Below are positions 22,670 through 37,975 of a stretch of DNA of 64,000 nt, piece after piece. The position numbers were made by a program, and so were the translations under genes. The stretch's first letter is position 1. Each line of letters opens with the position of its first letter. Under the pieces are notes generated by a model. It did no database searches. It was not told where the DNA came from and saw nothing but the letters and a program-made list of their open reading frames with translations. This stretch comes from Brucella haematophila (lineage in GTDB: Bacteria; Pseudomonadota; Alphaproteobacteria; Rhizobiales; Rhizobiaceae), in assembly GCF_005938105.1 (NCBI RefSeq), contig NZ_VCPE01000007.1, positions 31,631 through 95,630 on the forward strand. The letters are read 5' to 3'.

Positions 22670-23644
22670 TCATTCGAAGGCATAGACCTTCTTCCAATCA
22701 TTCTTCATGTCGACGATGACCCAGTTTCTTTTCGGTGCTTCGGTCAGAGCTTTGTCCAGCTTGCCGAATGACGACTGCCGGTCATAGGCATATTCCCGGT
22801 CTCCATCGGTGTGGTGGATGATGATGCCGAGGCTGTTGGGAGATGCGGTGCCCCAGCGCAGCATTTCGTAATCACCATCCGAGTTGCCCGCGATGAAAAT
22901 CGGCTTCTTACCAATAGCGCGATTGATGCCAACGGGTTTGCCGGGACCATCATCGATGAAATCAACCTCCGGCAAGCGTTTCAGGACGGGTTGGTCATTC
23001 TCTACGGCATATTGGGTTTTGATACTGCTGCCGATCACCTGCTCAGCGGGAATGCCATAGGCCTTTTCGGTCATGGGGCGCATGAACTCCACGCCACCGC
23101 CAGACACGATGAATGTTTTGAAGTCATGAGCGCGCAAATAATCAAGCAGCTCACGCATGGGCAGGAATGTCATTTCCGTAAAGGGCTTACCCGTCTTTGG
23201 ATGCTTCGCGGTTGCGTACCAATCCGTGACGATCTTGTTGAACTCGTCGGTCGTCATACCGGCATGGGTCGCCATGCCAAGCTCTACCACGCCCTTCTCG
23301 CCGCTTTTTGCAATACCTGCCAGATCATCGTTGAGGATGGATTTGAACGGTTCCGTGGTGTTCCATTCAGGGTGATCGGGAGCCAGTGCCTTGACCCGGT
23401 CCAGCATGAAAGCCAATTGAAAGTAATAGGGTTGCTCCGTCCAGAGTGTACCGTCATTGTCGAACACGGCAATTCGGTCGGCAGGCGCAACATAATCTCT
23501 GCTGCCTTGCTTGGTTACCTTTTCGACGAAGTCGACGATCTGCTGCCTGGATTTACTGTCATTCCAGTTGGAAAGCTCTGCGGCCCATGCCGATGTTGAA
23601 ATCTGCAACGTGACGATCAGCACTAACCGCGCAAGCGAACGCAT
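22670..23644 (-). CDS. Secreted HAD-superfamily hydrolase (phosphoserine-phosphatase-like)
   Basis: 324 residues with a signal peptide ending AWA. Motif I is AVFDNDGTLW, motif II TFIVSGGGVEFM, a Lys-bearing segment precedes FIDDGPGKPVG, and motif IV is FIAGNSDGDYEM. All catalytic motifs are present, so it should be an active periplasmic phosphatase, substrate unknown. The ATG is supported by GGGGGAA. It sits ten bases after the FGE stop in the part of the locus controlled by the box at 24674. Confidence 0.85.
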   Translation of the reverse strand: MRSLARLVLIVTLQISTSAWAAELSNWNDSKSRQQIVDFVEKVTKQGSRDYVAPADRIAVFDNDGTLWTEQPYYFQLAFMLDRVKALAPDHPEWNTTEPFKSILNDDLAGIAKSGEKGVVELGMATHAGMTTDEFNKIVTDWYATAKHPKTGKPFTEMTFLPMRELLDYLRAHDFKTFIVSGGGVEFMRPMTEKAYGIPAEQVIGSSIKTQYAVENDQPVLKRLPEVDFIDDGPGKPVGINRAIGKKPIFIAGNSDGDYEMLRWGTASPNSLGIIIHHTDGDREYAYDRQSSFGKLDKALTEAPKRNWVIVDMKNDWKKVYAFE

Positions 23645-23654
23645 GAACTTCCCC

Positions 23655-24620
23655 CTAGTTTGTTGGCCTTTTCACGCACCGAAATCCGACATGGCTTGTG
23701 GATGTGTCTTCGGGTTCTGCATGGCGCGCAGCCGGACGATAGCGACGGCAATAATCCGGCGAGCAGAGGTGAGAGCCGCCTTTCAGCACACGTCTGGCGA
23801 TGCGGATATCGGGTTGCTGTGGGTCCAAACTCGCCAATGCTTCGCCCCCACGGGGGTTACTGGGTATGCAGCAGGGACTTGCAGCCGGTTCCGCATGTCG
23901 CGTTGTCCAGTAATCATTGGTCCATTCCCAGACATTGCCGATCATGTCGTAGACGCCATAACCATTCGCGGGGAATGACCGGACTGGAGATGTTCGCTCA
24001 CGCCCTGCGGGTTTCGTGCTCTTCACGGGAAATACGCCTTGCCACGTGTTGGCCATGGCAACGCCATCCGGCATCAGGTCATTGCCCCACGCATATTCCA
24101 TGTCCTCGTGTCCGCCTTTGGCTGCGAACTCGAATTCTGCCTCGGTTGGCAAATCGAGACCCGCCCACTGCGCATAGGCAAGCGCATCGCAATGGGCGAC
24201 GTGAACGACGGGATGATCGAGCTTACCGCGTAAATCGCTGAGCCCACCCAATGGCTTGCGCCAGTTTGCTCCGAATTTGAATTTCCACCATTGACCGATA
24301 TCGCGGCCCTCCACCCTTTTTGGTGGCGTGAACACAAGCGAGCCTGCGCGCAGCATTTCGGGAAGGGCGCCGGGATAGTCATCGGGATTGGGTGCTTTCT
24401 CCGCCATCGTCATATAACCCGTTTCTTCAACGAAGCGGGAAAACTGACGGTTGGTGACGGGTGTCGTGCTGATCCAAAATCCGTCAACCTTAACCGGATG
24501 TCGCGGTGCTTCTTCGGGATAGTGGCTGTCCGACCCCATCTGAAACGTACCCCCCGGTATCCAGGCCATTTCGTCTGAAGCCTGCTCGGAATAACGTTTG
24601 CTCGAAGCGTTCATACCCAT
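23655..24620 (-). CDS. Formylglycine-generating enzyme (FGE/SUMF1 family)
   Basis: 321 residues, cytosolic. Family landmarks: WIPGGTFQMGS at the start, HPVVHVAHCDALAYAQWAG, LPTEAEFEFAAKGG, VYDMIGNVWEW, and the catalytic segment KGGSHLCSPDYCRRYR with the cysteine pair C286/C291, five apart as in aerobic copper-dependent FGE. FGE oxidises the CxP/AxR cysteine of sulfatases to formylglycine; the sulfatase 8 kb upstream in this locus has that motif (CTAGR). I chose the ATG at 24620, six bases after GGAGG; an in-frame ATG at 24626 touches the RBS. The 17-bp box at 24674-24690 lies 53 bases upstream. Confidence 0.93.
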   Translation of the reverse strand: MGMNASSKRYSEQASDEMAWIPGGTFQMGSDSHYPEEAPRHPVKVDGFWISTTPVTNRQFSRFVEETGYMTMAEKAPNPDDYPGALPEMLRAGSLVFTPPKRVEGRDIGQWWKFKFGANWRKPLGGLSDLRGKLDHPVVHVAHCDALAYAQWAGLDLPTEAEFEFAAKGGHEDMEYAWGNDLMPDGVAMANTWQGVFPVKSTKPAGRERTSPVRSFPANGYGVYDMIGNVWEWTNDYWTTRHAEPAASPCCIPSNPRGGEALASLDPQQPDIRIARRVLKGGSHLCSPDYCRRYRPAARHAEPEDTSTSHVGFRCVKRPTN

Positions 24621-24673
24621 CGTCATCCTCCGCGAAATTGTACAAAGGTTGCCTTTGTGGCCCTCTGGCGGGA

Positions 24674-24690
24674 AGTACGTTACGGTAAAT
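24674..24690 (-). promoter_or_regulatory. 17-bp regulatory box, copy A (upstream of FGE)
   Basis: Read towards FGE the site is ATTTACCGTAACGTACT. It belongs to the four-copy set with consensus ATTTACNGTAACKTACT (others at 32727, 32818, 35205). It sits in the 82-base gap between the BatD and FGE genes and is followed by a -10-like TACAAT about 20 bases ahead of the RBS, so it probably drives FGE and the three genes behind it separately from the MoxR part. Confidence 0.72.
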
Positions 24691-24702
24691 CAGGCAAGTG
24701 TA

Positions 24703-25989
24703 TCAGGGGTTCAGCGATACAAGCGCGGGTGGCTTTAAGGCGCTTTGACGCGAAATGCGGTTCTCAACGCCGTGAGCGAAGACACGGCGATCAATCTCTT
24801 CCGGGGCGCTATTTCCATAAAGCTGTCGTTGCAGAATTTCGACTTGCGCCGTCAGTGAAACGTCACCTGCTACTGCGGCCCAATCCTCAACTGACGAGTA
24901 TCCATTGCGTCGGGACCAGACTTCCAGCGCGGCATTGATCTGTGCGTAGTCGCCTGTTCTGATAATACGAAGTGTCTGTCGTTTTTGCCTGCCTGCCGAG
25001 CTTCGCTGCCGCTCGTTCCATTCGTGCAGAAGTTTCGAAAGCCGCGCCCGATATCGCATAGCGAGGGCAAGAACGACTGCGAACAGAAGCAAGGCTAACG
25101 CCAATATCCAAAGCACCTGCCGACTTGGCATGTTTTTGCGAGCGGGTTCAACGGATGTCGCAGATTTCGCTGTACCTGGAGCGACCGTAACGGTTGTCGC
25201 CGGTAAAGTTGCGAATTGAGCCTGCTGTGATTGCACATCAAACCAGCGATAGGAAACCGCAGGTAGCGTGAACGTGCCAGGCTTGGAAGCCGTGTAGACG
25301 ATGGTTTCGACGCGTCGACTTGCTGTTTGTCGCCCCACCGGAACATTGTCGGCCACAGTTGCTGGTTTTACATACTGGTTCAGGCCTTGTGATGTTCCAA
25401 CATTGACCGGCGGTATGGTGATCGCCACCGTATCTGTTGCGGTAATGGTAAGCATTCTGACCAGAGCGTCTCCGGTCTGTAATTTCTCCGGTGGTCGGTC
25501 GAAGCTTTGCGTCAGTTCCAGCGACCCGGCAGCGAATTCAGGTTGTCCGTCGTGTTGAGCGGCACTGACGCCAAAAGACAGCGGTGCGCTCGTCGCGGTT
25601 GCGTGCTTGCGATTTCCATCCTCAAGATAGTCGAACGAAATCGCGATTGCGGGAATGCTATAGCTTCCGCTGACTTGCGGTATGATGGAATAGCGCTTTT
25701 GAATGCCGCTGAACTGAACGCCATTTATGGTATCCGTGACGTTCTGGGATCGTTCGTCAGGCAATGTTACCAGAGCGTGCGGCAGCGCGAACAGGGGAAA
25801 TTGTGGGGGCGAGATGAAGAAACCCGGGGCAAGCACATTTAGAACGAGATGAACTTGCTGGCCCGGCACAATTGTGCCGGTTTCTTCAATCTTGGCGCGT
25901 ATAATGGGTTCCTGCGCCGCGGCGTTGCTGACGAGAAATCGGGTCGTCAGAAGCAGGCCGTAAACGATGAGACGAAACAGAACCCTCAT
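24703..25989 (-). CDS. BatD-like membrane protein
   Basis: 428 residues: a signal peptide (1-25, ending AAA), a long periplasmic beta-sandwich part (IEETGTIVPGQQVHLVLNVLAPGFF at its start), one membrane helix (LWILALALLLFAVVLALAM, about 290-310) and a cytosolic helical tail of about 110 residues. This is the BatD layout. BatD works with VWA proteins and MoxR ATPases in stress-linked assembly or maturation of envelope proteins. It overlaps the VWA-TPR gene by ATGA and is last of the coupled MoxR-Bat block. Confidence 0.8.
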   Translation of the reverse strand: MRVLFRLIVYGLLLTTRFLVSNAAAQEPIIRAKIEETGTIVPGQQVHLVLNVLAPGFFISPPQFPLFALPHALVTLPDERSQNVTDTINGVQFSGIQKRYSIIPQVSGSYSIPAIAISFDYLEDGNRKHATATSAPLSFGVSAAQHDGQPEFAAGSLELTQSFDRPPEKLQTGDALVRMLTITATDTVAITIPPVNVGTSQGLNQYVKPATVADNVPVGRQTASRRVETIVYTASKPGTFTLPAVSYRWFDVQSQQAQFATLPATTVTVAPGTAKSATSVEPARKNMPSRQVLWILALALLLFAVVLALAMRYRARLSKLLHEWNERQRSSAGRQKRQTLRIIRTGDYAQINAALEVWSRRNGYSSVEDWAAVAGDVSLTAQVEILQRQLYGNSAPEEIDRRVFAHGVENRISRQSALKPPALVSLNP

Positions 25990-27542
25990 TTGGTGCCGCC
26001 TTCCGCCTCAATCGAAAAACGGCGTGCCAGCATGGCGGCTGGGCTGACGGCAATGTTCTTGATCCACATCTGAGACGTCTGTTCAGACATGGCAATCTCA
26101 ACATCTTTGCCTTCTTTACCCTTGTCATCAAACTGGACACTATCGGGCTTCAAATCTGGATCTTCCGCCTGATCCTGTTCCTCTTTCTGCTGTGCTTGCA
26201 GGAGGCGCTTTGCTGTCGCGAGATTGGCCTGAATGTCTTCCGACTTTGGGTTTGCTTGAAGTGCCTTCTCGTAAGCAGAGACAGCGTCGTCAAACTTCTT
26301 CAGATGCATCAGCGCGTTACCCTGATTGTACCAGCTTTCGGGGCTGTCGATGATGGCGAATGCATTGATGGCTTCCTGATAATTCCCGGCCCGGTATTCG
26401 GCGACACCACGCCACATGGGATTGCGAAACAACTTTGCAGCTTTGGAAAATTCGTTTTTTTGAAAAGCAATTCTCCCCTGTTGGTCCTGCGTCAGCCACA
26501 TATTTTCCAATGAACCCGCCCTTGCCGGGTCGTTTCCGATCAGGTGAAAAGCAATGATTATGCTGCCCAGCCGGACAACCCAGCCGCGTCTGAATGTGAG
26601 GGCGAACAAGAGCGCTGCCGGGATGAGGAACCACCATCCGCTGTCGCGCCATCGGCTTTCCTTATCCGATTGCTGCTGCGCAAAGTTTCCCTGTATTTGC
26701 GCGGTAATCCAACGAACATCGGTATCATCGTCGGTGACGGTTGTGACTGCGATAGTATGCGAGGCGCGCAGTTGCGCCATGCTTTCAGTATCGAGTTTGG
26801 TAATGAGGCGTGCACCACCGTCTGATGAAAGAAAGCCGCCGTCTCCGGTCTTGATCGGCCCACCATCCGCTGTGCCGATGACCAACACCACAACGCCAGT
26901 ATCCCGTTCATCGTCCAGTGACTTGATGGCCGATGTTTCTACTCCGTCTGTCATGAACAGTATTGTTCCGGAAGAATCGTCTTCTTTCAAAAGTTGGGCT
27001 GCGCGGGTAAGTGCTGCGCCTGTATCCTTTCCCGGACGCGGCATGATGCCCGTCGAAAGCGCATCGGTATAGGATTCAATCAGATCGGTATCGTCGGTGA
27101 GGGGTAAAACAAGATGTGTAGTGCCTGCGTAGGCGATCACAGCCGTTCTAGCCCCGGCGCGATTTGCCAGAATATCATGGATTTTGAGCTTGGCTCGTTC
27201 GATGCGGCTGGGGCTGATGTCAATGGCATCCATTGTTTGCGAAAGATCGACCGCGATCACCAGTGATGCCGTGTCGTGGACGAAAGGTGGAGTTTCCTTG
27301 TCCCAGCTTGGACCAGCGATAGCGAGGATCATGATAGCCATGATCAACGCCAGAAGTGTCGCCGGTTGAAAACGCCGCTTGCTGTCTCCTTCGATGACCA
27401 GTCGCTCGAGCAGATGTGGAGCGATCATATTCTTCCACTTATGCCTCACGTCCGAAGATCGCGCGGCAAGCCAAACCAAGACAAGCGGCAGTATCAATAA
27501 AATCAGCCAGGCCGGGCGAAGGAAGTGAAAGTCGGAGATCAT
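25986..27542 (-). CDS. VWA-TPR fusion membrane protein (BatB+BatC-like)
   Basis: 518 residues from the ATG at 27542, which overlaps the previous stop as ATGA; a longer upstream frame lies inside the BatA gene. Two N-terminal helices lead to a VWA domain with a complete MIDAS: DLSQTMD (D-x-S-x-S/T variant), a conserved Thr in STGIMPRPGKDTGAALT, and FMTDGVET. A further helix follows (about 305-325), then TPR repeats (AIIDSPESWYNQGNALMHL, KKFDDAVSAYEKALQANPK) and a Gln/Asp-rich linker. It combines what are BatB and BatC in other genomes. Confidence 0.85.
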   Translation of the reverse strand: MISDFHFLRPAWLILLILPLVLVWLAARSSDVRHKWKNMIAPHLLERLVIEGDSKRRFQPATLLALIMAIMILAIAGPSWDKETPPFVHDTASLVIAVDLSQTMDAIDISPSRIERAKLKIHDILANRAGARTAVIAYAGTTHLVLPLTDDTDLIESYTDALSTGIMPRPGKDTGAALTRAAQLLKEDDSSGTILFMTDGVETSAIKSLDDERDTGVVVLVIGTADGGPIKTGDGGFLSSDGGARLITKLDTESMAQLRASHTIAVTTVTDDDTDVRWITAQIQGNFAQQQSDKESRWRDSGWWFLIPAALLFALTFRRGWVVRLGSIIIAFHLIGNDPARAGSLENMWLTQDQQGRIAFQKNEFSKAAKLFRNPMWRGVAEYRAGNYQEAINAFAIIDSPESWYNQGNALMHLKKFDDAVSAYEKALQANPKSEDIQANLATAKRLLQAQQKEEQDQAEDPDLKPDSVQFDDKGKEGKDVEIAMSEQTSQMWIKNIAVSPAAMLARRFSIEAEGGTK

Positions 27543-28528
27543 GCCGCTGCTCTCCGCGCCATTCGTGCCTGTGCAACTCCAATAAGAAGGGAAAAGATCA
27601 ATATCATCAATGAGAGTGCCGCCGGATACGGGAACAGCTCCCGTCGCGGTCGCCATGACAACTCTTTTTGTTCCTGTGGCGTTATACTGTCCAGCATATC
27701 GTAGATGGCGGCCAGACTGGCCTGATCCTGACCGAAGGAATAGCGTCCATCCGTTTGTGTGGCGATGGCCTGTAATGTCTGTGTGTCAACCTTATCTTCG
27801 CCGGTCGCGTTTGGGTCACCGATTGCGACGGTGTGAATAACAATGTGGTCGTCTTTGGCGATTTCTGCGGCTTTCAGAGGTGGCATCTTGCTGGCCGTAT
27901 CGTTGCCATCGGAGAGCAAGATGAGCACCTTTTCGGGCACGTTCGACTTTTCGAACATGCGAATAGCCAGGCCGATGGAGTCGCCCATTGCGGTTCTGGG
28001 ACCGGCCTCGCCCGGCACGAGGGATCCAATCATCGTCCGTATCAAATCGTGGTCCATCGTGAACGGCGCTAGCGGATAAGGGGCGTCGCCAAAGGCAATC
28101 AAGCCGAGCCGGTCGTTTGCCCGCCTTGCAACAAAGTCGGCTACCACCGTTTTGACGGCGTTGATCCGCGAGTCCAGCGCGCCGCCTGGTGTCGCAAAAT
28201 CGCGCGTGTCCATCGATTGGGAAAGATCGAGCGCCAGTAGTATATCGCGCTGCGGTATCGATTTTGTAATCGGTGGTTCGATCAGTTGCGGCCGGGCCAG
28301 TGCCAGAACCAGCAGGCTCCACGCGATCAGTTCGAGCACGATCTGCCACCAGCTTCGTCGCGGAATGATTGATCCTATTGTTGGCTCAACACCGGCTGCT
28401 CTTGCAACATCTTTGAAGAAGGGAAGCCTGATTGAAGCTGTCGAGACCTGATGGCTCGGCAATAGCCACCAGAAAAGCAGCGGTACCGGTAACAAAAGCA
28501 GAAGCCACGGATGATCGAGTTCATACAT
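27539..28528 (-). CDS. VWA-domain membrane protein (BatA-like)
   Basis: 329 residues: two N-terminal helices (LLLLLPVPLLFWWLL and a second at about 60-80), a VWA domain with MIDAS residues DLSQSMD, TAMGDSIG and LLSDGNDT, and a C-terminal helix (AALSLMILIFSLLIGVA). This is the usual BatA layout. It overlaps the DUF4381 gene upstream by eight bases and the next VWA gene by ATGA, so stoichiometric translation is likely. Confidence 0.87.
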   Translation of the reverse strand: MYELDHPWLLLLLPVPLLFWWLLPSHQVSTASIRLPFFKDVARAAGVEPTIGSIIPRRSWWQIVLELIAWSLLVLALARPQLIEPPITKSIPQRDILLALDLSQSMDTRDFATPGGALDSRINAVKTVVADFVARRANDRLGLIAFGDAPYPLAPFTMDHDLIRTMIGSLVPGEAGPRTAMGDSIGLAIRMFEKSNVPEKVLILLSDGNDTASKMPPLKAAEIAKDDHIVIHTVAIGDPNATGEDKVDTQTLQAIATQTDGRYSFGQDQASLAAIYDMLDSITPQEQKELSWRPRRELFPYPAALSLMILIFSLLIGVAQARMARRAAA

Positions 28529-29015
28529 GATGCCTCTCGATCCACAGCCGCGCCTGACGAACGATCATGGCCAAGTCGTCTATCTGCCGGTTGGGTTCGT
28601 ATTCGCGACCTGTCAGAAGCGCTTTCAGGTCGGTTCCAAGCGGCTCTGGACTGTGATGTTCGAGGAAAGCAACCCATTGGCTGCCGGATAACGCCGCCAC
28701 GTCAGTACGAGGCCAGACAGAAAGCGCCGTGCGCTTCATCAGTTCGGCGATTTCTGTTTCCGTTGACCGTACCATGGGCGCGCTGTTGGATATTGTTTCA
28801 AGAATATGGAGCGCCTCGCGCCGATAGGCGTTGCGTCGATAGCGGATCGCCCATCGCACAATGAGGATGGCAATTGCCAGGAAGAGCAGGGCCGCCGCCA
28901 GTACCCATCCCCATGTCTGCGGCAGCCATGGGATCGGCGGCGGAATAGCAATGTCGTGGAGCGAACGCAGGGCGGTCTCTGTTGCTTGATCCACTACCGC
29001 CTCCTTTGACGCCAC
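28521..29015 (-). CDS. DUF4381-family membrane protein
   Basis: 164 residues with one membrane helix (WGWVLAAALLFLAIAILIVRW, about 34-54) after a proline-rich segment IPPPIPWLPQTWG, then a cytosolic helical domain with TALSVWPRTDVAALSGSQWVAFL, the DUF4381 hallmark. The family occurs almost only between DUF58 and VWA genes of MoxR operons, as here. Overlaps the DUF58 gene by 22 bases. Confidence 0.85.
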   Translation of the reverse strand: MASKEAVVDQATETALRSLHDIAIPPPIPWLPQTWGWVLAAALLFLAIAILIVRWAIRYRRNAYRREALHILETISNSAPMVRSTETEIAELMKRTALSVWPRTDVAALSGSQWVAFLEHHSPEPLGTDLKALLTGREYEPNRQIDDLAMIVRQARLWIERHHV

Positions 29016-29947
29016 ATAGACTTCTCAAGGAGGTTGCGCAATTGCGGGGCGGTTTCTTCGGCCGCAGAGATAGGCAGCATGGGGAGACCAAGCTCGCGTT
29101 GCCATGAGCGAAATTCACGCCCGCGGTTACGCGCAAAACTATCGATGGAGTTGCGCATTGATTCTTTGCCGAAGGTCAACTCGGCCTGAGTTGTGCCCCC
29201 GCTGATGACCAGTTCGCCGCTCTTCGGCAGATCAAGCAGAAATGGATCATAGACCAGCAGGCAGATCACGTCGTTGCGGCTCGAAATCTGGAGCAGGTAA
29301 TCACGCGTCGTATCATCGTGACCGTCGAAGTCGCTGACAACGATCACGAGATAGTCGTGATAGGCGATGGCACTGACGTGATGCAAAATGTCATTCAGCA
29401 TTGTCGGCGCGGGATCATGCGCGTAGCCGGCATTGAGCGCGGCGTTCTTTTCCGCGATCTGGCTGGCCAGACCGATGACGGCATTGCGGCTGCGTTGCGG
29501 TTTGATCTGCGTCGTGTCTGTATCGCCGAATACGATGCCACCGACGCGATCGCCAGATCCCAATATACGCCAGGCACACAGCATTGCGCATTCTGCGGCG
29601 CTTACGGATTTCATCGCGCGTCTGCTACCGAAAAACATATTAATACGCTGATCGACGATCAGGAGGGCAGGGCGTTCTTTCTCTTCACTGTAAACTCGCA
29701 CGACTGGCTTCTTCGTGCGCGCCGTGACGCGCCAATCGATAGAGCGGATATCGTCGCCCGGCAGATATTCGCGCAACTCCTCGAAGGAGAGACCGCGACC
29801 ACGTACCGCCGAGCGCATCCGGCCCGCAAGCTGGCGATGGCTAGGCGACTTTTGAACGAAGCTGAGATCACGCGCTTGCGCCTCAAGTGCGACGAGCGCG
29901 GAGGTGTCTACGTAAACACCGGTATCGTCGCTCAGGCTTGCGCTCAT
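28994..29947 (-). CDS. DUF58-domain protein of the MoxR operon
   Basis: 317 residues with no membrane helix. It carries the DUF58 hallmark FEELREYLPGDDIRSIDWRVTARTKKPVVRVYSEEKERP at about 55-90, then a VWA-like fold with LLIVDQRINMFFGS where the MIDAS serines are partly lost. It probably links the MoxR ATPase with the membrane VWA proteins. Overlaps moxR by ATGA. Confidence 0.88.
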   Translation of the reverse strand: MSASLSDDTGVYVDTSALVALEAQARDLSFVQKSPSHRQLAGRMRSAVRGRGLSFEELREYLPGDDIRSIDWRVTARTKKPVVRVYSEEKERPALLIVDQRINMFFGSRRAMKSVSAAECAMLCAWRILGSGDRVGGIVFGDTDTTQIKPQRSRNAVIGLASQIAEKNAALNAGYAHDPAPTMLNDILHHVSAIAYHDYLVIVVSDFDGHDDTTRDYLLQISSRNDVICLLVYDPFLLDLPKSGELVISGGTTQAELTFGKESMRNSIDSFARNRGREFRSWQRELGLPMLPISAAEETAPQLRNLLEKSMWRQRRR

Positions 29948-30924
29948 GACACAGCCACCAGCTCGGCGATGCGGTCAATGATCTGGTCGGGCGTTGTGTT
30001 TGACGCATGTGCTTCATAAGACAACAGCAATCGGTGCCGGAATACATCGTGCATGATGGCCTTGACGTCATCGGGCGTAACAAAATCACGGCCCTTCAAC
30101 CAGGCATAGGAGCGCGACATGCGATCAAGGCCGATCACACCGCGCGGGCTCACACCTACCTGTAAAAGTTTGGCCAGATCGGCATTGTATCGTTCTGGAT
30201 AACGTGTCGCAAAAACCAGTGCGACCATGTATTTTTCAACCGGCTCCGACACTGTAATCGTGCCTATTTCCTTGCGCGCCTCAAAGATGCTTTTCGCGGA
30301 CAGGCGAGTGGCTTTATCCTTTGCAGGACGCTTATCATGGGCTTCCTGTTCCTCGCTCCGGTTAAGACGCATGATCGCAGCTTCGGATTGTTCATCGGGA
30401 TAATCGACCCGGATATGAAGCAGAAATCGATCCAGTTGTGCCTCGGGCAAGGGGTAGGTCCCTTCCTGCTCAATCGGATTCTGCGTTGCCATCACCATGA
30501 ACAGGTCCGGCAATTGATAGCTCTTTCCACCGACAGTTACCTGCCGTTCTTCCATCGCTTCCAGCAAGGCTGATTGAACCTTAGCGGGCGCGCGATTGAT
30601 CTCATCGGCAAGAATGAGATTGGCGAAGATCGGACCCTGCTGAAACTGAAAGGCGCTTTTTGCGCCGTCTGAGATATAGATTTCAGAACCAGTGACATCC
30701 GCAGGCAGCAGATCGGGTGTAAATTGGATGCGCGAAAGCTCGGATTCGAGATTTTTCGCAAGGCTTTTGATTGCACGGGTTTTGGCAAGCCCGGGGAGCC
30801 CCTCAACCAGTATGTGGCCGTTTGAAATCACACCCAGCAATAGGCGCTCGACCATTTGCTCCTGTCCGATGACAGATTGTCCCACACTGTCACCAAGTTT
30901 CAGAATGTCATCGCGTGCAGTCAT
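29944..30924 (-). CDS. MoxR-family AAA+ ATPase
   Basis: 326 residues from the ATG at 30924, six bases after AGGAG. The P-loop is divergent as in MoxR: ILVEGLPGLAKTRAIKSLA; Walker B is LILADEINRAPAKVQSALLEAMEERQV, sensor 1 VMATQNPIEQEGTYPLPEAQLDRF. MoxR ATPases act as chaperones with VWA partners to insert cofactors or remodel protein complexes. It leads the coupled block moxR-DUF58-DUF4381-VWA-VWA/TPR-BatD and follows the sulfatase, from which it is separated by a hairpin. Confidence 0.92.
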   Translation of the reverse strand: MTARDDILKLGDSVGQSVIGQEQMVERLLLGVISNGHILVEGLPGLAKTRAIKSLAKNLESELSRIQFTPDLLPADVTGSEIYISDGAKSAFQFQQGPIFANLILADEINRAPAKVQSALLEAMEERQVTVGGKSYQLPDLFMVMATQNPIEQEGTYPLPEAQLDRFLLHIRVDYPDEQSEAAIMRLNRSEEQEAHDKRPAKDKATRLSAKSIFEARKEIGTITVSEPVEKYMVALVFATRYPERYNADLAKLLQVGVSPRGVIGLDRMSRSYAWLKGRDFVTPDDVKAIMHDVFRHRLLLSYEAHASNTTPDQIIDRIAELVAVS

Positions 30925-30947
30925 GCTGTGCTCCTGTCGACGAAGAA

Positions 30948-30973
30948 ACGGCACGCGCTGAAGCGCGTGCCGT
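30948..30973 (-). terminator. Attenuator hairpin between sulfatase and moxR
   Basis: ACGGCACGCGCT and AGCGCGTGCCGT form a 12-bp perfect stem around a two-base centre, followed on the minus strand by TTTCTTC. It lies 11 bases after the sulfatase stop. Weak T tract, so partial termination giving more sulfatase than MoxR is plausible. Confidence 0.68.
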
Positions 30974-30984
30974 CATTTCGAATC

Positions 30985-32601
30985 TCAGTTCGCTTTGGAC
31001 TTCGCTGCGTTCTCCTTGATCTTGACCTCGACATCGCGGGCAATCTGATCAATCGAGAAACTTGCCGGTTCCTGACTAGGCGGATATTCAACGAAGGTCT
31101 GAAGGAATTCTGCGGCGTGCATCGTCATCTGCGCCAGCTTGAAATCGTTTCTTGTCAGCCAGTCGAAGTACTGGTCCGAAACAATATCGGCGCGCTCATA
31201 GGGATCCATGCGCAGATTGTAGAGCTTGGGAACACGCAGCGGCGTGAAAGGCTGCTGCCACACGGCAAAGCCACCGGGATGCTGCATCTCAACGAAGACC
31301 GCTTTCCAGTCGCCAAGGCGATAGGCAACGAGAACACCGTCATCGTTGAAATAGGCGAAATCATTGCGAGCGCTCTTGGATTCTTGCCCTGTGAGATATG
31401 GCAACTGGTTATAGCCGTCCAGGTGCACCTTGAACTGCTTGCCGCCAATGCTGGTACCCTTGAGAAGGCGATCCTTGATATCGGTATCACCAGCAACAGC
31501 CATCAAAGTCGGGAACCAGTCCAGACCGGAGAACATATCTGTCGACACCTGACCGGGCTTGATATGGCCCGGCCACCGCACCATTGCCGGCACGCGGAAA
31601 GCGCCTTCGAAATTGGAATCCTTTTCATTGCGGAATGGCGAGTTTGCAGCATCCGGCCAAGTGAAGCGATTTGGACCGTTGTCGGTCGTGTAAACGACGA
31701 TTGTGTTGTCCGCGATGCCCAGGTCATCCAGCGTCTTCAGGAGTTTTCCGACATCACCGTCATGTTCGATCATGCCGTCGGCATACTCATTGCCGGTCAT
31801 GCCGCTCTGTCCGACCATCGAAGGGCGAACATGGGTGAACAAATGCATGCGTGTCGTGTTCATCCAGGTGAAGAATGGCTTCTTCTGGTCGACCTGACGC
31901 TTGATAAAGTCGATTGCAGCGTCCGTGGTTTCGTCATCGATGGTTTCCATGCGCTTCTTCGTCAGTGCACCCGTATCCTCGATTTTTCCGTCAGCGCTTG
32001 CCTTGAGCACACCGCGCGGCGTGCTCATTTTGGTGAAGGCTTCATCATCCTTCGGCCAGTTCGGGTTTTCGGGTTCCTCTTCGGCGTTGAGATGGTAGAG
32101 GTTGCCATAAAACTCGTCGAAGCCGTGATTGGTCGGCAGATATTCGTCGCGGTCGCCCAAGTGGTTTTTACCGAACTGACCGGTGGCATAACCAAGAGGC
32201 TTCAGCGCCTGGGCGAGGGTAACGTCGCGTGCCTGCAGACCAACCGTTGCACCCGGCACGCCAACTTTCGACAAGCCGGTTCGCTTCGGCGTTTGCCCGG
32301 TGATGAAGGATGAGCGTCCAGCGGTACAGCTGTTCTCGGCATAATAGTCCGTGAACATCAGCCCTTCCTGTGCGATACGGTCGATGTTCGGTGTGCGATA
32401 GCCCATGACCCCAAACGAATAGGCGCTGATATTGGTCTGGCCGATATCATCGCCAAAGATCACGAGAATATTCGGTTTCGCCGCGGGTTCCGCAGGCGCA
32501 TTTTGTTGCGCATGAACGGGGGTCACAACCGTTACAGACGTCACTGTCATGACCAATGCGGCGGTCGCCGAAAGTAGTCGGCGGATGACGGGCTTCTTCA
32601 T
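30985..32601 (-). CDS. Secreted arylsulfatase, Cys-type
   Basis: 538 residues with a Sec signal peptide (cleavage near VHA-QQ, residue 31). The active-site motif is C92-T-A-G-R, a CxAxR form that FGE converts to formylglycine; metal ligands appear as GDD (50-52) and TTDNGPNRF. Other landmarks are GKNHLGDRDEYLPTNHGFDEFYGN and MVRWPGHIKPG. Substrate unknown. Because FGE is cytosolic, the enzyme must be modified before Sec export. Strong RBS GAGGAGG. A box-B site lies 125 bases upstream, and FGE is downstream in the same locus under another copy. Confidence 0.93.
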   Translation of the reverse strand: MKKPVIRRLLSATAALVMTVTSVTVVTPVHAQQNAPAEPAAKPNILVIFGDDIGQTNISAYSFGVMGYRTPNIDRIAQEGLMFTDYYAENSCTAGRSSFITGQTPKRTGLSKVGVPGATVGLQARDVTLAQALKPLGYATGQFGKNHLGDRDEYLPTNHGFDEFYGNLYHLNAEEEPENPNWPKDDEAFTKMSTPRGVLKASADGKIEDTGALTKKRMETIDDETTDAAIDFIKRQVDQKKPFFTWMNTTRMHLFTHVRPSMVGQSGMTGNEYADGMIEHDGDVGKLLKTLDDLGIADNTIVVYTTDNGPNRFTWPDAANSPFRNEKDSNFEGAFRVPAMVRWPGHIKPGQVSTDMFSGLDWFPTLMAVAGDTDIKDRLLKGTSIGGKQFKVHLDGYNQLPYLTGQESKSARNDFAYFNDDGVLVAYRLGDWKAVFVEMQHPGGFAVWQQPFTPLRVPKLYNLRMDPYERADIVSDQYFDWLTRNDFKLAQMTMHAAEFLQTFVEYPPSQEPASFSIDQIARDVEVKIKENAAKSKAN

Positions 32602-32726
32602 AGCGGCCTCCTCAAAATGGATTGTCTCAACATTCCGTGCTCCTGTTCGCGAGGCAAATTGGGATGTCGTCGATGCTCATGTCGATGGCAACTCGAAGAG
32701 GCTCGAATAATTCTTGGGCGCTCGTA

Positions 32727-32743
32727 AGTACGTTACAGTAAAT
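32727..32743 (-). promoter_or_regulatory. 17-bp regulatory box, copy B (upstream of sulfatase)
   Basis: Read towards the sulfatase the site is ATTTACTGTAACGTACT, differing from copy A only at the variable sixth-seventh position. It lies 125 bases upstream of the sulfatase ATG and 74 bases from the oppositely oriented copy C, so the region 32602-32897 is a divergent control region. Apart from the boxes I see no gene in it. Confidence 0.74.
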
Positions 32744-32817
32744 GCGTGTGTGCGCATTCGCTGGCGGTTGACACCCTCTCGCTGGCAAGGATCGCCTGGC
32801 CCGGGCAGCACGGGTAG

Positions 32818-32834
32818 ATTTACCGTAACGTACT
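32818..32834 (+). promoter_or_regulatory. 17-bp regulatory box, copy C (upstream of small gene and regulator)
   Basis: ATTTACCGTAACGTACT on the plus strand, identical to copy A read in gene direction. It lies 63 bases upstream of the small helical gene and about 460 bases upstream of the membrane regulator gene, suggesting the regulator controls its own expression. Confidence 0.74.
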
Positions 32835-32897
32835 GCCACCCGCACAAATTGGTGTCATGCTTTACATACAAATCCGTTGAGGGGAGATCCGTGGACA

Positions 32898-33173
32898 GTG
32901 AACCGGGATGAAACAGTCCGCCGCAACGCCAGCTCTGCTTCGAAAAGCGGGCTCAGTAAACTCATGTTAAAGCTTCCATCTGTCCGCACCGAGCTCAGGC
33001 AACTTGTCAGTGAGCCTCTGATTGGCCTTTTTGAAGCCTATGATGAGGCAAGTAATATGCTTGAAAAACTGCGGAGGAATGAAAGTGAGGCAACTTCACT
33101 TTCTTTAGAATATGAAACAATATGTAAGGAGATAGAGGAGGACGTATTGCAGTATTGCTTGCTGCATCGGTGA
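32898..33173 (+). CDS. Small helical protein of unknown function
   Basis: About 91 residues from the GTG at 32898, 11 bases after GAGGGGAG; a TTG at 32877 and an ATG at 32964 are in-frame alternatives. No signal peptide or membrane helix. From about residue 28 the chain is rich in Leu, Glu and Lys/Arg (LVSEPLIGLFEAYDEASNML, then EKLRRNESEATSLSLEYE), predicting two long helices, possibly coiled coil. It stands between box C and the membrane regulator gene, on the same strand. I do not recognise a family. Confidence 0.45.
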   Translation: MNRDETVRRNASSASKSGLSKLMLKLPSVRTELRQLVSEPLIGLFEAYDEASNMLEKLRRNESEATSLSLEYETICKEIEEDVLQYCLLHR

Positions 33174-33295
33174 GGTTTTTGCTCCAAAATGAAACACTAT
33201 TCTTTATTGATTGCCGATTATTGACAATAGCCGCACGGGGATTATTTTAATCGAAAATGCTAATGTATTCTCATGTCGGGTCCGCGAGGGGTGGT

Positions 33296-34987
33296 ATGGC
33301 ACGGAATAGCAATGCGTTCGATGATCGGAAAACCTCGGATGAGGAAGTCAAGTCCGCGCTCGCTGATCTGATCGCGGATAAGCGGTTTCGCGCGACCGAT
33401 CGCGGCAAAGCTATTCTCAACTACATTGCCGGGCTCTATTTTACGGGCTGCGGTGAAGGGGTAAAAGGATACTCTATTGCGATTGATGTGCTGGGGCGTC
33501 CGGACAGTTTCGACCCGTCGACTGACCCTATCGTCCGCATTGAAGTCAGTCGATTGCGTGCCGCGCTAGTTCAGTATTATGAAGCTTTCGGTAGAGAAAA
33601 GCCAATTGAGATCGAGCTTCCAAAGGGCAAATATGCGCTGGCCTTCAATCGCCGCGCAGCTGTCGAAACACCCGAGTCGGATACGCCTGTGGCGCGCGAT
33701 GCAATTCCGCCTCCAATGTCCGTCCCAACAACTCTGAGACGGAGGCTCAAATACCTTGATCTGGCGGTGGCCAGTTTCGCTTTGCTCGTTTCTTTAGCAC
33801 TGGTCTATTTTCTAACCCATCGGTCAACCGATACCGTAAAGCCCACAGTAGCAATTGATTTTCGTGCCGAGAATCCTGCCTTTAACGTAGAGGCTGAGAA
33901 TGTTCGGGATTCTTTGCTTATTGCACTCGGCAATTTTCATACTTTAGCACTTCGTTCAGATGATAGCGGGTCTATCGATCCTCAAACGCGTTTCCCGGCA
34001 TATACAGTTCGCATGCGATATCGCGTTGAAGACGAGATAAAGAGCATCTGGTGGCAAGTAAACGATGAAGTCAAAAACGTTATTGTCAGTTCTGGCGTTG
34101 AAGAGGCGTCAGGGTTGGGACAATCCGCAGAACAGGTGCGGGCTTCTCTGTCCTCGTCGCTTTCACAAAAGCTGGCCGCTTCCAATAGCGTGATCAATAA
34201 CCGGATCGCCGCTGATGTGAAGGTGCCGTTCACCGGCAATGTTTGTGTGCTGAAAGCCGAGATAGCATTGGCGAAAGGACAGGCGCAACCAGACGACGGG
34301 ATTTGTCTTGAAAAGACATTGAAAAGTGACCCAAGGCAGAGCGATGCCATGGCGGCTCTGTCCCGGGTTCTTGTGAACGCCAACGGGCCAGTCATCAGCA
34401 GGGAAGTGCTTGATCGCAGTCTGGAACTTGCGCGGGATGCTGTCTCGATTGCGCCATGGTCTGATCGGGCTGAATTTGCCTTGATGGAAGCTAACTTCCG
34501 TAAGGGCCGGATTGATGAAGCGCTTGAGGCGGGAAAGCGCGCACTATCGCTCAATCCCAATAATCTGGAGGCGAAAGCCGGTCTGGCGATGGTTCTCTTT
34601 GCCAATGAAAATTGGGAGCAAGCGATTGCTTTGGTTGATGAAAGTAATCAAGACAAACGCAATATCGCTTTGAAAGCGCGCACCGTTCTCGCGCTTGATG
34701 CTGCCCGACGCGGTGACTGGCATGATGTATTGCTGCGGGCAAATCAGCTTCCGCCGCAGAATGACTTTGCGACCGGCTTTCGCCTGGCAGCACTTGTTCA
34801 GTTGCGCCCCACAGAAGCGCTCGCTGAACTCCAGGATGTAAAGCACTCCAATCCCAATCTAAGCAAGACCGTCGGTGAGGAACTAGCGGCGATGAGCGTA
34901 CCAAACGTGGTAACAAACGTCATTATGGCTCAAATCAAGATCGTTCAGACGAAGACGCTGCTACATGAATCGGCGCAACGAAACTGA
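33296..34987 (+). CDS. Membrane-spanning transcriptional regulator with winged-helix-like domain and TPRs
   Basis: 563 residues from the ATG at 33296 (GAGGGG just upstream; an in-frame ATG at 33257 has no RBS). Residues 15-117 match the winged-helix-like domain found at the start of many rhizobial TPR/cyclase proteins: GYSIAIDVLGRPDSFDPSTD, then PIVRIEVSRLRAALVQYYE and IELPKGKYALAF. One membrane helix at about 154-174 (LAVASFALLVSLALVYFL) separates it from a periplasmic part with TPR repeats at about 330-500 (EALEAGKRALSLNPNNLEAKAGLAMVL). This CadC-like topology suits direct signalling from periplasm to DNA. It lies between boxes C and D and is the best candidate to bind all four. Confidence 0.78.
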   Translation: MARNSNAFDDRKTSDEEVKSALADLIADKRFRATDRGKAILNYIAGLYFTGCGEGVKGYSIAIDVLGRPDSFDPSTDPIVRIEVSRLRAALVQYYEAFGREKPIEIELPKGKYALAFNRRAAVETPESDTPVARDAIPPPMSVPTTLRRRLKYLDLAVASFALLVSLALVYFLTHRSTDTVKPTVAIDFRAENPAFNVEAENVRDSLLIALGNFHTLALRSDDSGSIDPQTRFPAYTVRMRYRVEDEIKSIWWQVNDEVKNVIVSSGVEEASGLGQSAEQVRASLSSSLSQKLAASNSVINNRIAADVKVPFTGNVCVLKAEIALAKGQAQPDDGICLEKTLKSDPRQSDAMAALSRVLVNANGPVISREVLDRSLELARDAVSIAPWSDRAEFALMEANFRKGRIDEALEAGKRALSLNPNNLEAKAGLAMVLFANENWEQAIALVDESNQDKRNIALKARTVLALDAARRGDWHDVLLRANQLPPQNDFATGFRLAALVQLRPTEALAELQDVKHSNPNLSKTVGEELAAMSVPNVVTNVIMAQIKIVQTKTLLHESAQRN

Positions 34988-35325
34988 TTCGGTCGCCGGG
35001 GGGTGTTGTGGCAGAGGTTGCTATCTATATCCAGCATCGGAATGGGTGCGCAGAATTCGGAAGATTTCGCTCCGCATGCGAGCATAGGAAATCGCTCTCC
35101 TGTTGGACCGACGCACTCATTTCGACAGGTGGTTTGGCACGCCAAATAAACGTTCGACCTTGATTGATAAAAGTCGATAGTTGAAAGCCGTAGCGAATGG
35201 AGGATTTACGGTAACTTACTAATTTAACGTTGCGCGAAAAATAAAAAGCAAAGAGTATAAAGCAAATTAGTATTCGTAGATTCGCAGGAATACTGAGCTT
35301 TCGCGCTCGTAGTCAAGGGGACGTT
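34988..35325 (+). other. Control region ahead of the SphA-like gene
   Basis: 338 bases without a convincing gene. It holds box D (35205-35221), an AT-rich stretch after it, and an inverted repeat AGTATTC-N12-GAATACT at 35270-35295 that would lie in the 5' leader or at the promoter. A weak RBS, AAGGGGAC, precedes the ATG at 35326. The first 200 bases show no recognised element. Confidence 0.5.
35205..35221 (+). promoter_or_regulatory. 17-bp regulatory box, copy D (upstream of SphA-like gene)
   Basis: ATTTACGGTAACTTACT, the most divergent copy (K position is T). It lies 104 bases upstream of the SphA-like ATG and has the same orientation to its gene as the other three copies. Confidence 0.68.
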
Positions 35326-36309
35326 ATGGGTCGAATTTCGCTTCATATGCAAGCGTTGGCAGCAATCGCGGGAATGTTGCTTGTTCCGTCAGTCGCGATG
35401 AGTGCTGAAGGAGGCGCGGGCTTCTACCTCTTGGGTTCCAAAGGGCCCGCAGCGGCTATAACGCCACCTTCTGGCGTCTATTTCCAGAATGATTTTTACT
35501 ATTATCGCGGCGACCTCGGCGGCAATAAAAGCCTTCCCACTGGTGGTAAATTGGCTGCTGGTGTCGTGGGCACAGCGGCTATAGAAATTCCGACACTTAT
35601 GTGGGTATTGCCGGAAAGTGTGGCTGGCGGTTCTCTTGGTCTGAGTGCATCGCTGCCCATCGGCTGGAAGAAGACAGAGGCCGATGTTGTTCTGAATGGT
35701 CCCCGTGTCGGGGAAATTTCGACTGGTGTACGCGATACGGTGTTTACCGTTGGTGATCCAATCGTCAGTGGGTTTCTTGGTTGGCAAACCGGTAATTTTC
35801 ACTATCAGCTTGGTACGATGGTCAATGTGCCTATTGGCGACTATCAGGATGGTCAGATCTCCAATATCGCTTTCCACCATTGGGGGGCTGACATATTTGC
35901 CGCCGGAACCTGGCTGGATCCGACAATCGGTTGGGACCTTTCTGGTATTGTCGGCATAACCTTCAATGCGGAAAATCCAGCTACCGATTACCGAACTGGT
36001 AACGAGTTCCATTTTGAATGGGCGGCGGTAAAGCACTTCAACCAGAAATTCGATGCTGGTTTGGTTGGTTATTACTACCAACAACTTTCTGGTGATAGTG
36101 GCGATGGCGCAGCGCGACCGTTCAAGGGGCGTGTGGCCGCCATTGGCGCGACCGCCGCTTGGAACTTTGCAATGGGCGAAACGCCGGTTTCGGCTCGCCT
36201 TAAATATTTCCACGAGTTTGCTGCTGAAAACAGGGCGGAAGGCGATGCGGTTTACCTGACATTGTCGATGCCGATATCGATCAAGAAGCCAACGGCTTCG
36301 ACTGACTGA
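35326..36309 (+). CDS. SphA/phenol-MetA-type outer-membrane protein
   Basis: 327 residues with a signal peptide ending AMSA-EG. The mature start GGAGFYLLGSKGPAAAITPP, followed by GVYFQNDFYYYRGD, is the hallmark of the SphA/MetA-pathway family (predicted beta-barrels that may take up hydrophobic compounds). Alternating hydrophobic strands run to the end, with LSLTLSMPISIK near the C-terminus. Under box D, it is a probable member of the regulon. Confidence 0.82.
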   Translation: MGRISLHMQALAAIAGMLLVPSVAMSAEGGAGFYLLGSKGPAAAITPPSGVYFQNDFYYYRGDLGGNKSLPTGGKLAAGVVGTAAIEIPTLMWVLPESVAGGSLGLSASLPIGWKKTEADVVLNGPRVGEISTGVRDTVFTVGDPIVSGFLGWQTGNFHYQLGTMVNVPIGDYQDGQISNIAFHHWGADIFAAGTWLDPTIGWDLSGIVGITFNAENPATDYRTGNEFHFEWAAVKHFNQKFDAGLVGYYYQQLSGDSGDGAARPFKGRVAAIGATAAWNFAMGETPVSARLKYFHEFAAENRAEGDAVYLTLSMPISIKKPTASTD

Positions 36310-36400
36310 TTGGACGCAGTTTCTGTGAGCGCATGTGCATTTTGAGTGAAGACATTCTGCACATGACAGGTTCCACCATGGCATGATGAGGGAGATGGCT

Positions 36401-37060
36401 ATGCATATCAGATCATTCAATACCGCCGGCTTGGCGGGCATGGTTGGGATGATAGTTGCGGTTCTGACCTACTCGCCAGCATATGCACAAAATGATAAGT
36501 TAAGCGGATTTCCAGCTATGGTTCTGGGTGGGCAAACCGCCAAAGCGAGGATCGTTCAATTCAGCGTTCCTTTTGATAATCTGATCAGATTGGCTGACAA
36601 GGATGTTTCGCTTGGAAAAACGACCCTTGATGAAATTCAAACTCTGGCTGGGGGCAGCGTTCATGGGCATAGCTCGTCTTCGGCTAGAACGGCTTGGCTG
36701 TGTTATGAGATTACTGGTGATAATTTGCCCCGGCGAATCTGGTTCATATCGGATGGCATGAACAAGAAGAAAGGTGATGGCGCTGTTCTTAATCTGATAG
36801 CAGCAGAAGTTATAACAGATAAGTCAGCCAAATGTGGGCAACCCCGTATCGATCTCTCGAACCTCAAACTGCCAATTCCAGCTTTGAAAGATGACAAACG
36901 TACTTTGGAAGAACGTCTGGGGAAGGTAAAAGCCAAGCAATTTGCACGTTATTCGAATGAACATAAAGTTTTAGGAGAGACGGTGGAACAATCGCTTGTC
37001 TACCGCCTTGATGGAGACCGGATTACCGGCGTGGCGTTCTCGCAGGCGACAGCACAATAG
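36401..37060 (+). CDS. Secreted protein of unknown function
   Basis: 219 residues from the ATG at 36401, six bases after AGGGAG; two in-frame ATGs lie just upstream. A signal peptide ends near AYA-QN. Two Cys (LCYEIT and KCGQPR) could form a disulfide. Secondary structure looks mixed, with an Asp/Lys-rich middle (SLGKTTLDEIQTLAGG). No family recognised. It follows the SphA-like gene by 91 bases. Confidence 0.7.
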   Translation: MHIRSFNTAGLAGMVGMIVAVLTYSPAYAQNDKLSGFPAMVLGGQTAKARIVQFSVPFDNLIRLADKDVSLGKTTLDEIQTLAGGSVHGHSSSSARTAWLCYEITGDNLPRRIWFISDGMNKKKGDGAVLNLIAAEVITDKSAKCGQPRIDLSNLKLPIPALKDDKRTLEERLGKVKAKQFARYSNEHKVLGETVEQSLVYRLDGDRITGVAFSQATAQ

Positions 37061-37117
37061 AGATTTTATCGGAAAACGTCTGTGGGTCTTAATTGGACGC
37101 AGATGCAGAGGCCGCTT

Positions 37118-37975
37118 ATGGGAAACCGCGTGACCACAGATTTGCTCCCGAGAGAAAGAATTGGCGAAAAAGTCGGCCAGCTTATCTTGGGCGGCGTGGT
37201 TTCTATCCTGCTGATAACGACGCCGTCGCTTGCTCAATCCGCTAATGACGATGTGGATGAGCTGGCCCGAAAGGTCTCTAACCCGGCTTCATTCATGATC
37301 AGCGTGCCGGTGCATTCTGATCTTGATTTTGGCCGGCGAAGTGGGAAAGTTCGTGGCTTTTCTCTGGATATAGAGCCAGTGATACCGATGCGGTTCAATG
37401 ATCGCTGGAACGTCATCTCACATACGGATATTCCTTTCGTCTATACCAACCCGTTTGGTGAGGTCGGCGGCACTTATGGGCTAGGCGATATCACGCAAAC
37501 TTTCTCATTCACTCCAGCGGCTCATGGTCCACTGGTCTGGGCGGTTGGGCCGCAGTTTTCTTTTCCAACTGCTACAGATGATCTGCTGGGGTCGGGTAAG
37601 TTTTCTCTCGGCCCATCGGGCTTGCTGCTTTATCAAACCAGTTCGATCACGACAGGCATGTCAGCAAGCCATATATGGTCAGTGATGGGTTCTGGTAGCA
37701 GACCGGACGTGAACCAGACCGAGCTTCAACCATTCATCGCGTGGCATATCGGTAAAGGCAGGACCATATCGGCCAACCTTGATGCCGACTATGACTGGAC
37801 AGCCGATCAATGGACTGTGCCTGTTTCGGGATCGTTCTCGCAGATTGTTAAGGTCGGTGATCAGACGATGAGCCTGTCGCTTGGTGCGAAATACTGGTTG
37901 GAAGGGCCAGAAGCGGGCCCCAAATGGGGTATAAAGGCAGGCGTGACCTTCCTGTTCCCCCAAACCGTCAAATAG
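37118..37975 (+). CDS. Neuromedin-U-like/transporter-type outer-membrane protein
   Basis: 285 residues from the ATG at 37118 (AGAGG six bases upstream). Signal peptide to about SLA-QS, then DDVDELARKVSNPASFMISVPVHSD and LDIEPVIPMRFNDRWNVISHTDIPF, the opening of a beta-barrel family often annotated transporter or neuromedin U. The C-terminal GIKAGVTFLFPQ gives a final strand. Third envelope protein in a row on this strand, possibly in the same regulon as the SphA-like gene. It and the preceding gene both carry ATTGGACGCAG a short way upstream. Confidence 0.78.
   Translation: MGNRVTTDLLPRERIGEKVGQLILGGVVSILLITTPSLAQSANDDVDELARKVSNPASFMISVPVHSDLDFGRRSGKVRGFSLDIEPVIPMRFNDRWNVISHTDIPFVYTNPFGEVGGTYGLGDITQTFSFTPAAHGPLVWAVGPQFSFPTATDDLLGSGKFSLGPSGLLLYQTSSITTGMSASHIWSVMGSGSRPDVNQTELQPFIAWHIGKGRTISANLDADYDWTADQWTVPVSGSFSQIVKVGDQTMSLSLGAKYWLEGPEAGPKWGIKAGVTFLFPQTVK

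Follow-up and report, generated by a model that had tools for sequence, protein, structure and literature searches.

The 64,000-nucleotide stretch of Brucella haematophila DNA analysed here (the window; positions 31,631 to 95,630 of contig NZ_VCPE01000007.1, assembly GCF_005938105.1) carries a gene cluster encoding a sulfatase, a formylglycine-generating enzyme (FGE) and an SphA-like porin, in which a 17-bp box occurs four times in intergenic DNA. These boxes are very probably the operators of one regulon, with the product of a further gene of the cluster, here termed REG, a membrane-anchored one-component factor, as their putative binder and activator. The computed basis for this reading consists of conserved sites restricted to operon-leading genes and co-occurring with REG, together with the clustering of site types on the REG tree and the modelled fold of REG. 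Physical binding, dimerization and a periplasmic signal, perhaps a sulfated compound, would complete it.

The pattern ATTTACNGTAACKTACT has four exact matches, with no mismatches, in the window (Table 1), and no fifth match was found in the 64 kb even with up to three mismatches. In 100 shuffles the mean was 0.21 matches and the maximum two. An earlier, sequence-only reading of this DNA had described four non-coding copies with a common orientation to the downstream gene, and this description was confirmed; each box is oriented toward the start codon downstream of it. Direct reading also bore out the constancy of 15 of the 17 positions and the inner palindrome, TTACNGTAA. The coordinates given for the first three boxes (24674, 32727 and 32818) were correct, while the fourth box starts at 35204 and not at 35205.

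The motif is not frequent in the genome as a whole, which removes one objection that the sequence-only reading had foreseen. The 16-base form, TTTACNGTAACNTACT, has only four exact matches in the whole genome (5,499,564 bases), all inside this cluster. With up to one mismatch, six matches were obtained, versus one for a control read backwards. At up to two mismatches the control was the commoner (25 matches versus 14 for the pattern, and 36 versus 16 for the degenerate form), so two-mismatch matches alone are not evidence, and the two-mismatch scan of this genome was rejected as such.

Conservation of the box at the same loci in related genomes was also borne out. Five congeners (G016, G017, G021, G024 and G030, whose loci are designated L064–L068) have the same gene order and a box at all four places; 19 of these 20 boxes are exact, and one, in L067, has a single mismatch. 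In an alignment of the six species (window and L064–L068), 60 of the 64 columns of the 16-base box are invariant, versus 134/258, 56/322 and 35/60 of the other columns in the same three aligned regions. Where the cluster is rearranged, as in Rhizobium, Ensifer, Agrobacterium and environmental Brucella species, genes of the same kinds are preceded by the box or by a variant form of it, so that the expected placement before sulfatase, FGE and envelope genes holds even under altered gene order. The regulon proposed earlier around sulfatase and FGE is thus supported by the rarity of the box, its conservation, and its placement before FGE, sulfatase, porin and the operon of REG and the small gene that precedes it.

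The distribution of the dyad core of the box, KTWACNGTWRC, was determined within 200 bp upstream of each gene in 46 loci (the window and L064–L108), genes entering the count when their start and 120 bp or more of upstream sequence were present. The core was found mostly before operon-leading genes: the small gene (36/40), FGE (22/24), sulfatase (17/21) and porin (12/16), counts that are not independent, since the 46 loci are mutually related. Further genes gave 6/14 (hyp37082), 4/16 (MoxR) and 1/7 (hyp36383), and the four MoxR genes with a core (in L091, L092, L094 and L096) are those without a same-strand sulfatase gene in front. No core was found upstream of the operon-internal genes, namely HAD (0/25), BatD (0/18), BatB (0/19), BatA (0/21), DUF58 (0/20) and REG itself (0/46), a total of 0/149; random windows of the same 46 loci contained it in 227 of 9200 cases (2.5%). 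In the window, likewise, no dyad core lies within 200 bp upstream of MoxR, DUF58, BatA, BatB or BatD.

The 17-bp box is probably not one 17-bp site: its sequence is better read as the 11-bp dyad KTWACNGTWRC, three bases and the first part of a –35 element. A –10-like hexamer, TANNNT, peaks exactly 21 nt behind the box, at 16 of 117 sites. After thinning of relatives, which reduced 97 sites to 61, it was present at this offset in 11 of 61 sites, with no more than two at any other offset and a maximum of six in 2000 shuffles. An offset of 21 leaves a 17-bp spacer between CTTNCC and the hexamer, and CTTNCC resembles the alphaproteobacterial –35 sequence CTTGAC; it is because of this spacer and this likeness that the box reads as an operator plus the start of a –35 element. 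The remaining sites have no hexamer, or have it elsewhere, e.g. at offset 31 before FGE in Ochrobactrum. In the window none of the four sites has a hexamer at offset 21, and the candidate –10 of FGE, TACAAT, is at offset 31, one helical turn further.

Other lineages show variations on the same design. A clade of R. leguminosarum/Agrobacterium type is without the 17-bp form, and word counting revealed variants of TGTWACNGTWACA before the small gene, sulfatase, hyp37082 and, in two loci only, porin. The sulfatase sites of the R. leguminosarum type have CTTACC (L087, L088 and L090) or CTTAAC (L108) at the –35 position. In L100, from a metagenome-assembled genome (MAG) of the Rhodospirillaceae, a single 23-bp palindrome with a fully symmetric core, GAGTACGTAACTGTTACGTACTC, lies between divergent FGE and sulfatase genes; with arms on both sides, it is perhaps one operator serving two promoters. 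A full 21-bp palindrome was considered as the general site and rejected: 385 class-level genomes contained no match with up to one mismatch, and the only place where it was seen is the divergent FGE/sulfatase promoter of L100.

REG, the protein encoded at 33296, had been nominated previously as the reader of the box, and it is still the best candidate, given its winged-helix model, the co-occurrence of box and orthologue, and the palindromes beside its homologues; binding is putative. Its N-terminal domain is an OmpR/PhoB-type winged helix in a structure model (VIA-align), an assignment to be read with caution given that Foldseek returned nothing significant for this domain. The N-terminus matches no Pfam family above the cut-off. 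At E values up to 1, 62 members match 18 families, among which neither PF00486 (Trans_reg_C) nor a LytTR model is present; LytTR is absent from the whole window REG protein as well. A profile of the N-terminal domain gave no match to PDB chains at E values up to 10. Searches of PDB sequences with whole REG yielded TPR proteins (best 60 of 132 matches), and TPR proteins also dominate the matches of the whole-REG model. No receiver domain was seen in the model or in the Pfam matches.

A hydropathy stretch of at least 1.6 is present in 38 of 41 REG homologues of the window and L064–L108, and in 30 of 34 of those in the more distant loci L109–L143. No clear membrane-helix stretch is present in L100 and four Rhodobacterales, and L088 and L089 are just under the limit. 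The sensor part of REG would lie on the periplasmic side. Two sets of REG sequences, A3 (the window and 52 of 80 loci) and A4 (the window and 61 of 80 loci), omit short or interrupted frames (L067, L068, L093, L096, L103 and L137) and part of the near-identical or Devosia rows. Among the matches listed, REG-type proteins in plasmid records are hypothetical or unannotated in 40 of 44 cases.

The box and REG occur together. Across 249 order-level genomes, with five first-look candidates scored per genome, two have both the box and a close REG orthologue (E<1e-40), and the other 247 have neither. The association also extends to lineages in which REG stands apart from the cluster. In L109–L143, with 3.4–21.7 kb of DNA per locus, the sulfatase, FGE, porin and other tested cluster genes were absent (0/35 at E values up to 1e-6), as was a homologue of the small gene (0/35). 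Among 39 far loci (L100, L102, L104, L106, L107 and L109–L143 without L137), a palindrome of the TTTACATGTAAA type adjoins REG in 28, from Devosia, Pelagibacterium and their kin. Such palindromes number 41 overlapping matches in 14.8 kb around called REG starts versus three in 661 kb elsewhere, and these three are situated 59–182 bp inside the called starts of L107 and L117, which were probably called too early. This palindrome, which has a 2-nt spacer (L102, L107 and L109–L143), is a probable autoregulatory site.

Of the other far loci, four from Rhodobacterales each have one copy of GTTACGGTAAC, 84–85 bp before REG, and the Rhodobacter locus L136 has neither this nor the TTTACATGTAAA type. 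L100 and L104 have cores at FGE/sulfatase and porin/sulfatase, respectively; five of the 39 loci have no such site. TTAC/GTAA half-sites are shared by the lineages, with spacers that differ. Placed on a tree of 105 N-terminal domains, the site types require ten changes, versus 56.6 when shuffled, and three site types each occupy one side of a branch; the tree is built on few columns and leaves many forks open, and the site-type labels were assigned by the analyst. L067 and L137 are not in the tree, and L068, L093, L096, L103 and L104 were included as far as their frames ran.

A separate observation concerns genome G052, of another family, in which one exact box (L049:9942–9957) lies directly beside the start of a REG homologue; as a single site in a single genome this is weak. 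That homologue has no clear membrane helix (best hydropathy 0.93).

In the mechanism proposed here, REG would have its winged-helix domain (OmpR/PhoB-like) in the cytoplasm and, beyond a single transmembrane helix, a large alpha/beta-TPR sensor in the periplasm. As a dimer it would occupy the 11-bp dyad KTWAC-N-GTWRC just upstream of the weak –35 element CTTNCC and recruit RNA polymerase, turning on the exported sulfatase, FGE, the outer-membrane SphA-like porin, envelope proteins and the operon of the small gene and REG itself. From geometry alone, REG would activate rather than repress. The converse, that REG occupies the same sites as a repressor beside the –35 element until a signal releases it, is unlikely, if deserving of consideration: the Devosia-type palindromes lie near the start codon of REG, where a site would be well placed for autorepression, and in the Rhizobium sites with an offset-21 hexamer the operator abuts the –35 element. 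However, the dyad centre precedes the first base of CTTNCC by 9 bp, which would leave no overlap with the –10 or the start point, and a weak –35 would be usual for activated promoters. The –10 of FGE in Ochrobactrum, one helical turn further, is likewise as seen with activators, in a small number of sites.

Two sets of observations set limits to this reading. REG is interrupted in Ochrobactrum teleogrylli (L067:9992–11678, inside the winged helix) and in Brucella tritici (L068:9965–11688, mid-protein), and both loci keep all four boxes; the interruptions reflect either loss of the regulator or a sequencing error. In addition, among weaker relatives of the N-terminal domain, a dyad pair was found upstream in three of 26 and in none of the other 23. 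Proteins with this domain accordingly do not all have such a site, and the idea of one dyad shared by the entire N-terminal family was rejected.

The interrupted copies would be in keeping with another factor, either the small protein or an unlinked regulator, reading the dyad, REG being a mere neighbour and target. The small gene does accompany REG in 41 of the 45 loci L064–L108, and its product is possibly a co-regulator. This explanation is nevertheless improbable, since L109–L143 mostly have TTAC/GTAA palindromes beside REG with the small gene and the sulfatase, FGE and porin genes all missing. Moreover, of the small protein and REG it is REG that has the DNA-binding-like domain, and the concordance of box and close orthologue across the 249 genomes points the same way.

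It is still less probable that the box is the promoter of an alternative sigma factor of the extracytoplasmic function (ECF) type. The –35-like part, the constant orientation and, at part of the sites, the fixed distance to a –10-like hexamer are consistent with such a promoter, but its –35 would be expected to be non-palindromic; the core of the box has dyad symmetry, complete at L100, and the R. leguminosarum-type clade uses TGTWACNGTWACA. The Pfam scan of ten window proteins showed no sigma factor, and no search for an unlinked one was made. Chance, or local copying of a repeat, as four copies inside 10.5 kb might suggest, is refuted by conservation. The flanks diverge while the boxes persist, more sites occur on other contigs of the genome (C7, C23 and C54) and in rearranged clusters in other genera, and shuffles rarely produce a match.

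With respect to known systems, the architecture of REG is like that of the ToxR/CadC-type membrane-anchored one-component regulators, with an N-terminal winged helix, a single transmembrane helix and then a putatively periplasmic sensor. It differs from them in that Trans_reg_C is absent even from the weak matches of its N-terminus, in that the sensor bears TPR repeats, in that the associated site is made of inverted half-sites 1 nt apart, and in that some relatives are without a clear membrane-helix stretch. Sites of PhoB/OmpR response regulators are direct repeats; the REG-associated site is palindromic, and REG has no receiver domain. HigX of Caulobacter is likewise an alphaproteobacterial membrane-bound factor acting on envelope genes; its LytTR domain follows four transmembrane helices and its motif, ATGTTASC-GSTACCAT, has no spacer (PMC13384398), so REG, with no LytTR domain, belongs to a different family. 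Transmembrane transcription regulators, with which REG shares its membrane-bound state, have been surveyed with DNA-binding domains drawn from Pfam models (PMC10269533), and a family without a Pfam model would be missed by such surveys. In the accessible text of the ChvI paper (PMC3687685), 'formylglycine' occurs only inside names of purine intermediates.

No published description of the site or of such a regulator was found in the open-access literature searched, most subscription papers being outside its scope, which agrees with the earlier statement that no site of this form was known. The ToxR/CadC architecture is already known; no description seems to exist of the DNA-binding family, the site or the regulon. 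We consider it fairly likely that REG represents an unrecognised family of one-component regulators across the Alphaproteobacteria, mostly membrane-anchored and annotated as hypothetical proteins, whose Pfam-invisible winged helix reads TTAC/GTAA dyads with a spacer of 1 or 2 bp according to clade, and which governs a dedicated sulfatase-activation regulon (exported sulfatase, cytoplasmic maturase, outer-membrane porin and one sensor) in Rhizobiaceae, environmental Brucellaceae and at least one Rhodospirillaceae MAG. If so, TPR proteins listed as hypothetical or unannotated in plasmid records would acquire a reader function, a site and targets, and the DNA site of the Devosia and Rhodobacterales homologues would be predicted. 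A single dedicated switch also appears to govern both a sulfatase and its formylglycine maturase, which would make the trigger, and through it the natural substrate, accessible to testing in plant-associated Rhizobium.

The regulon probably extends to other loci, as judged from the placement of further sites. In the same genome, matches to KTWACNGTWRCGTACTT with zero to one mismatch precede a DUF1254/DUF1214 protein by 56 bp (C7) and a 98-aa reading frame by 61 bp (C23). A DUF1254/DUF1214 gene follows that reading frame, and on C23 a two-mismatch site also lies 59 bp before a divergent hyp37082 homologue. On C54, two sites of the KTWACNGTWRCGTACTT type (L036:8786–8802 and 9972–9987) are beside a second SphA-like porin–sulfatase pair, the one beside the porin pointing away from it. 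Further sites are at C1:140198 and C54:69978. In the congener G024, a DUF1254/DUF1214 protein whose start is twin-arginine-like has a site 56 bp in front of it (L051:10110), and an autotransporter has one at 59 bp (L055:10193). The common theme of these outlying targets is the cell envelope.

The features of the cluster are collected in Table 1. The exported sulfatase and cytoplasmic FGE look like a working pair, because the sulfatase has a signal-peptide-like start and the Cys-type motif C-x-A/P-x-R (CTAGR), and FGE has the active-site cysteine pair (CSPDYC). The product of the small gene matched no Pfam family (best E 0.048, below the cut-off).

Table 1. Boxes, promoter elements, genes and REG domains in the window (window coordinates)
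Feature	Position	Strand	Remarks
Box 1	24674–24690	–	Upstream of FGE; exact match; 16/16 aligned columns invariant in six species
Box 1 dyad core, TTTACCGTAAC	24679–24689	–	
Box 1 –35-like CTTCCC	24670–24675	–	
FGE candidate –10, TACAAT	24637–24642	–	Read from the sequence
Box 2	32727–32743	–	Upstream of sulfatase; exact match; boxes 2 and 3 jointly 31/32 columns invariant
Box 2 dyad core, TTTACTGTAAC	32732–32742	–	
Box 3	32818–32834	+	Upstream of small gene and REG; exact match; columns jointly with box 2
Box 3 dyad core	32819–32829	+	
Box 4	35204–35220	+	Upstream of SphA-like porin; exact match; 13/16 columns invariant
Box 4 dyad core	35205–35215	+	Outer part deviates: TTACT in place of GTACT
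HAD phosphatase-like protein	22670–23644	–	PF12710, E 2e-11; directly behind FGE, probably same transcript
FGE (sulfatase maturation)	23655–24626	–	PF03781, E 6e-77; CSPDYC motif
MoxR, DUF58, BatA, BatB and BatD genes	24703–30954	–	Behind sulfatase; BatD by Pfam, other names by reading translations
Sulfatase	30985–32601	–	PF00884, E 5e-50; signal-peptide-like N-terminus; active-site motif CTAGR
Small conserved gene	32898–33173	+	About 91 aa; start codon uncertain; between box 3 and REG
REG, candidate regulator	33296–34987	+	Alternative start at 33257 possible
REG winged-helix domain	33338–33655	+	aa 15–120; OmpR/PhoB-like fold in model
REG transmembrane helix	33728–33817	+	aa 145–174; hydropathy 2.35
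REG alpha/beta and TPR part		+	Behind helix; predicted periplasmic
SphA-like porin	35326–36309	+	PF13557, E 2e-54
hyp36383	36383–37060	+	No family; behind porin, probably one transcript (35326–37975)
hyp37082	37082–37975	+	No family; as hyp36383

Two minor elements were seen in the leader regions of the cluster. An inverted repeat, ACAAAGG-TTG-CCTTTGT (24641–24657), beside the candidate –10 of FGE is partly conserved in the congeners and is possibly a second operator. Between box 2 and the sulfatase start codon, CAAATTGGGATGTCGTCGATGCTC (32653–32676, + strand) is nearly or fully invariant in the six species and may be a leader element.

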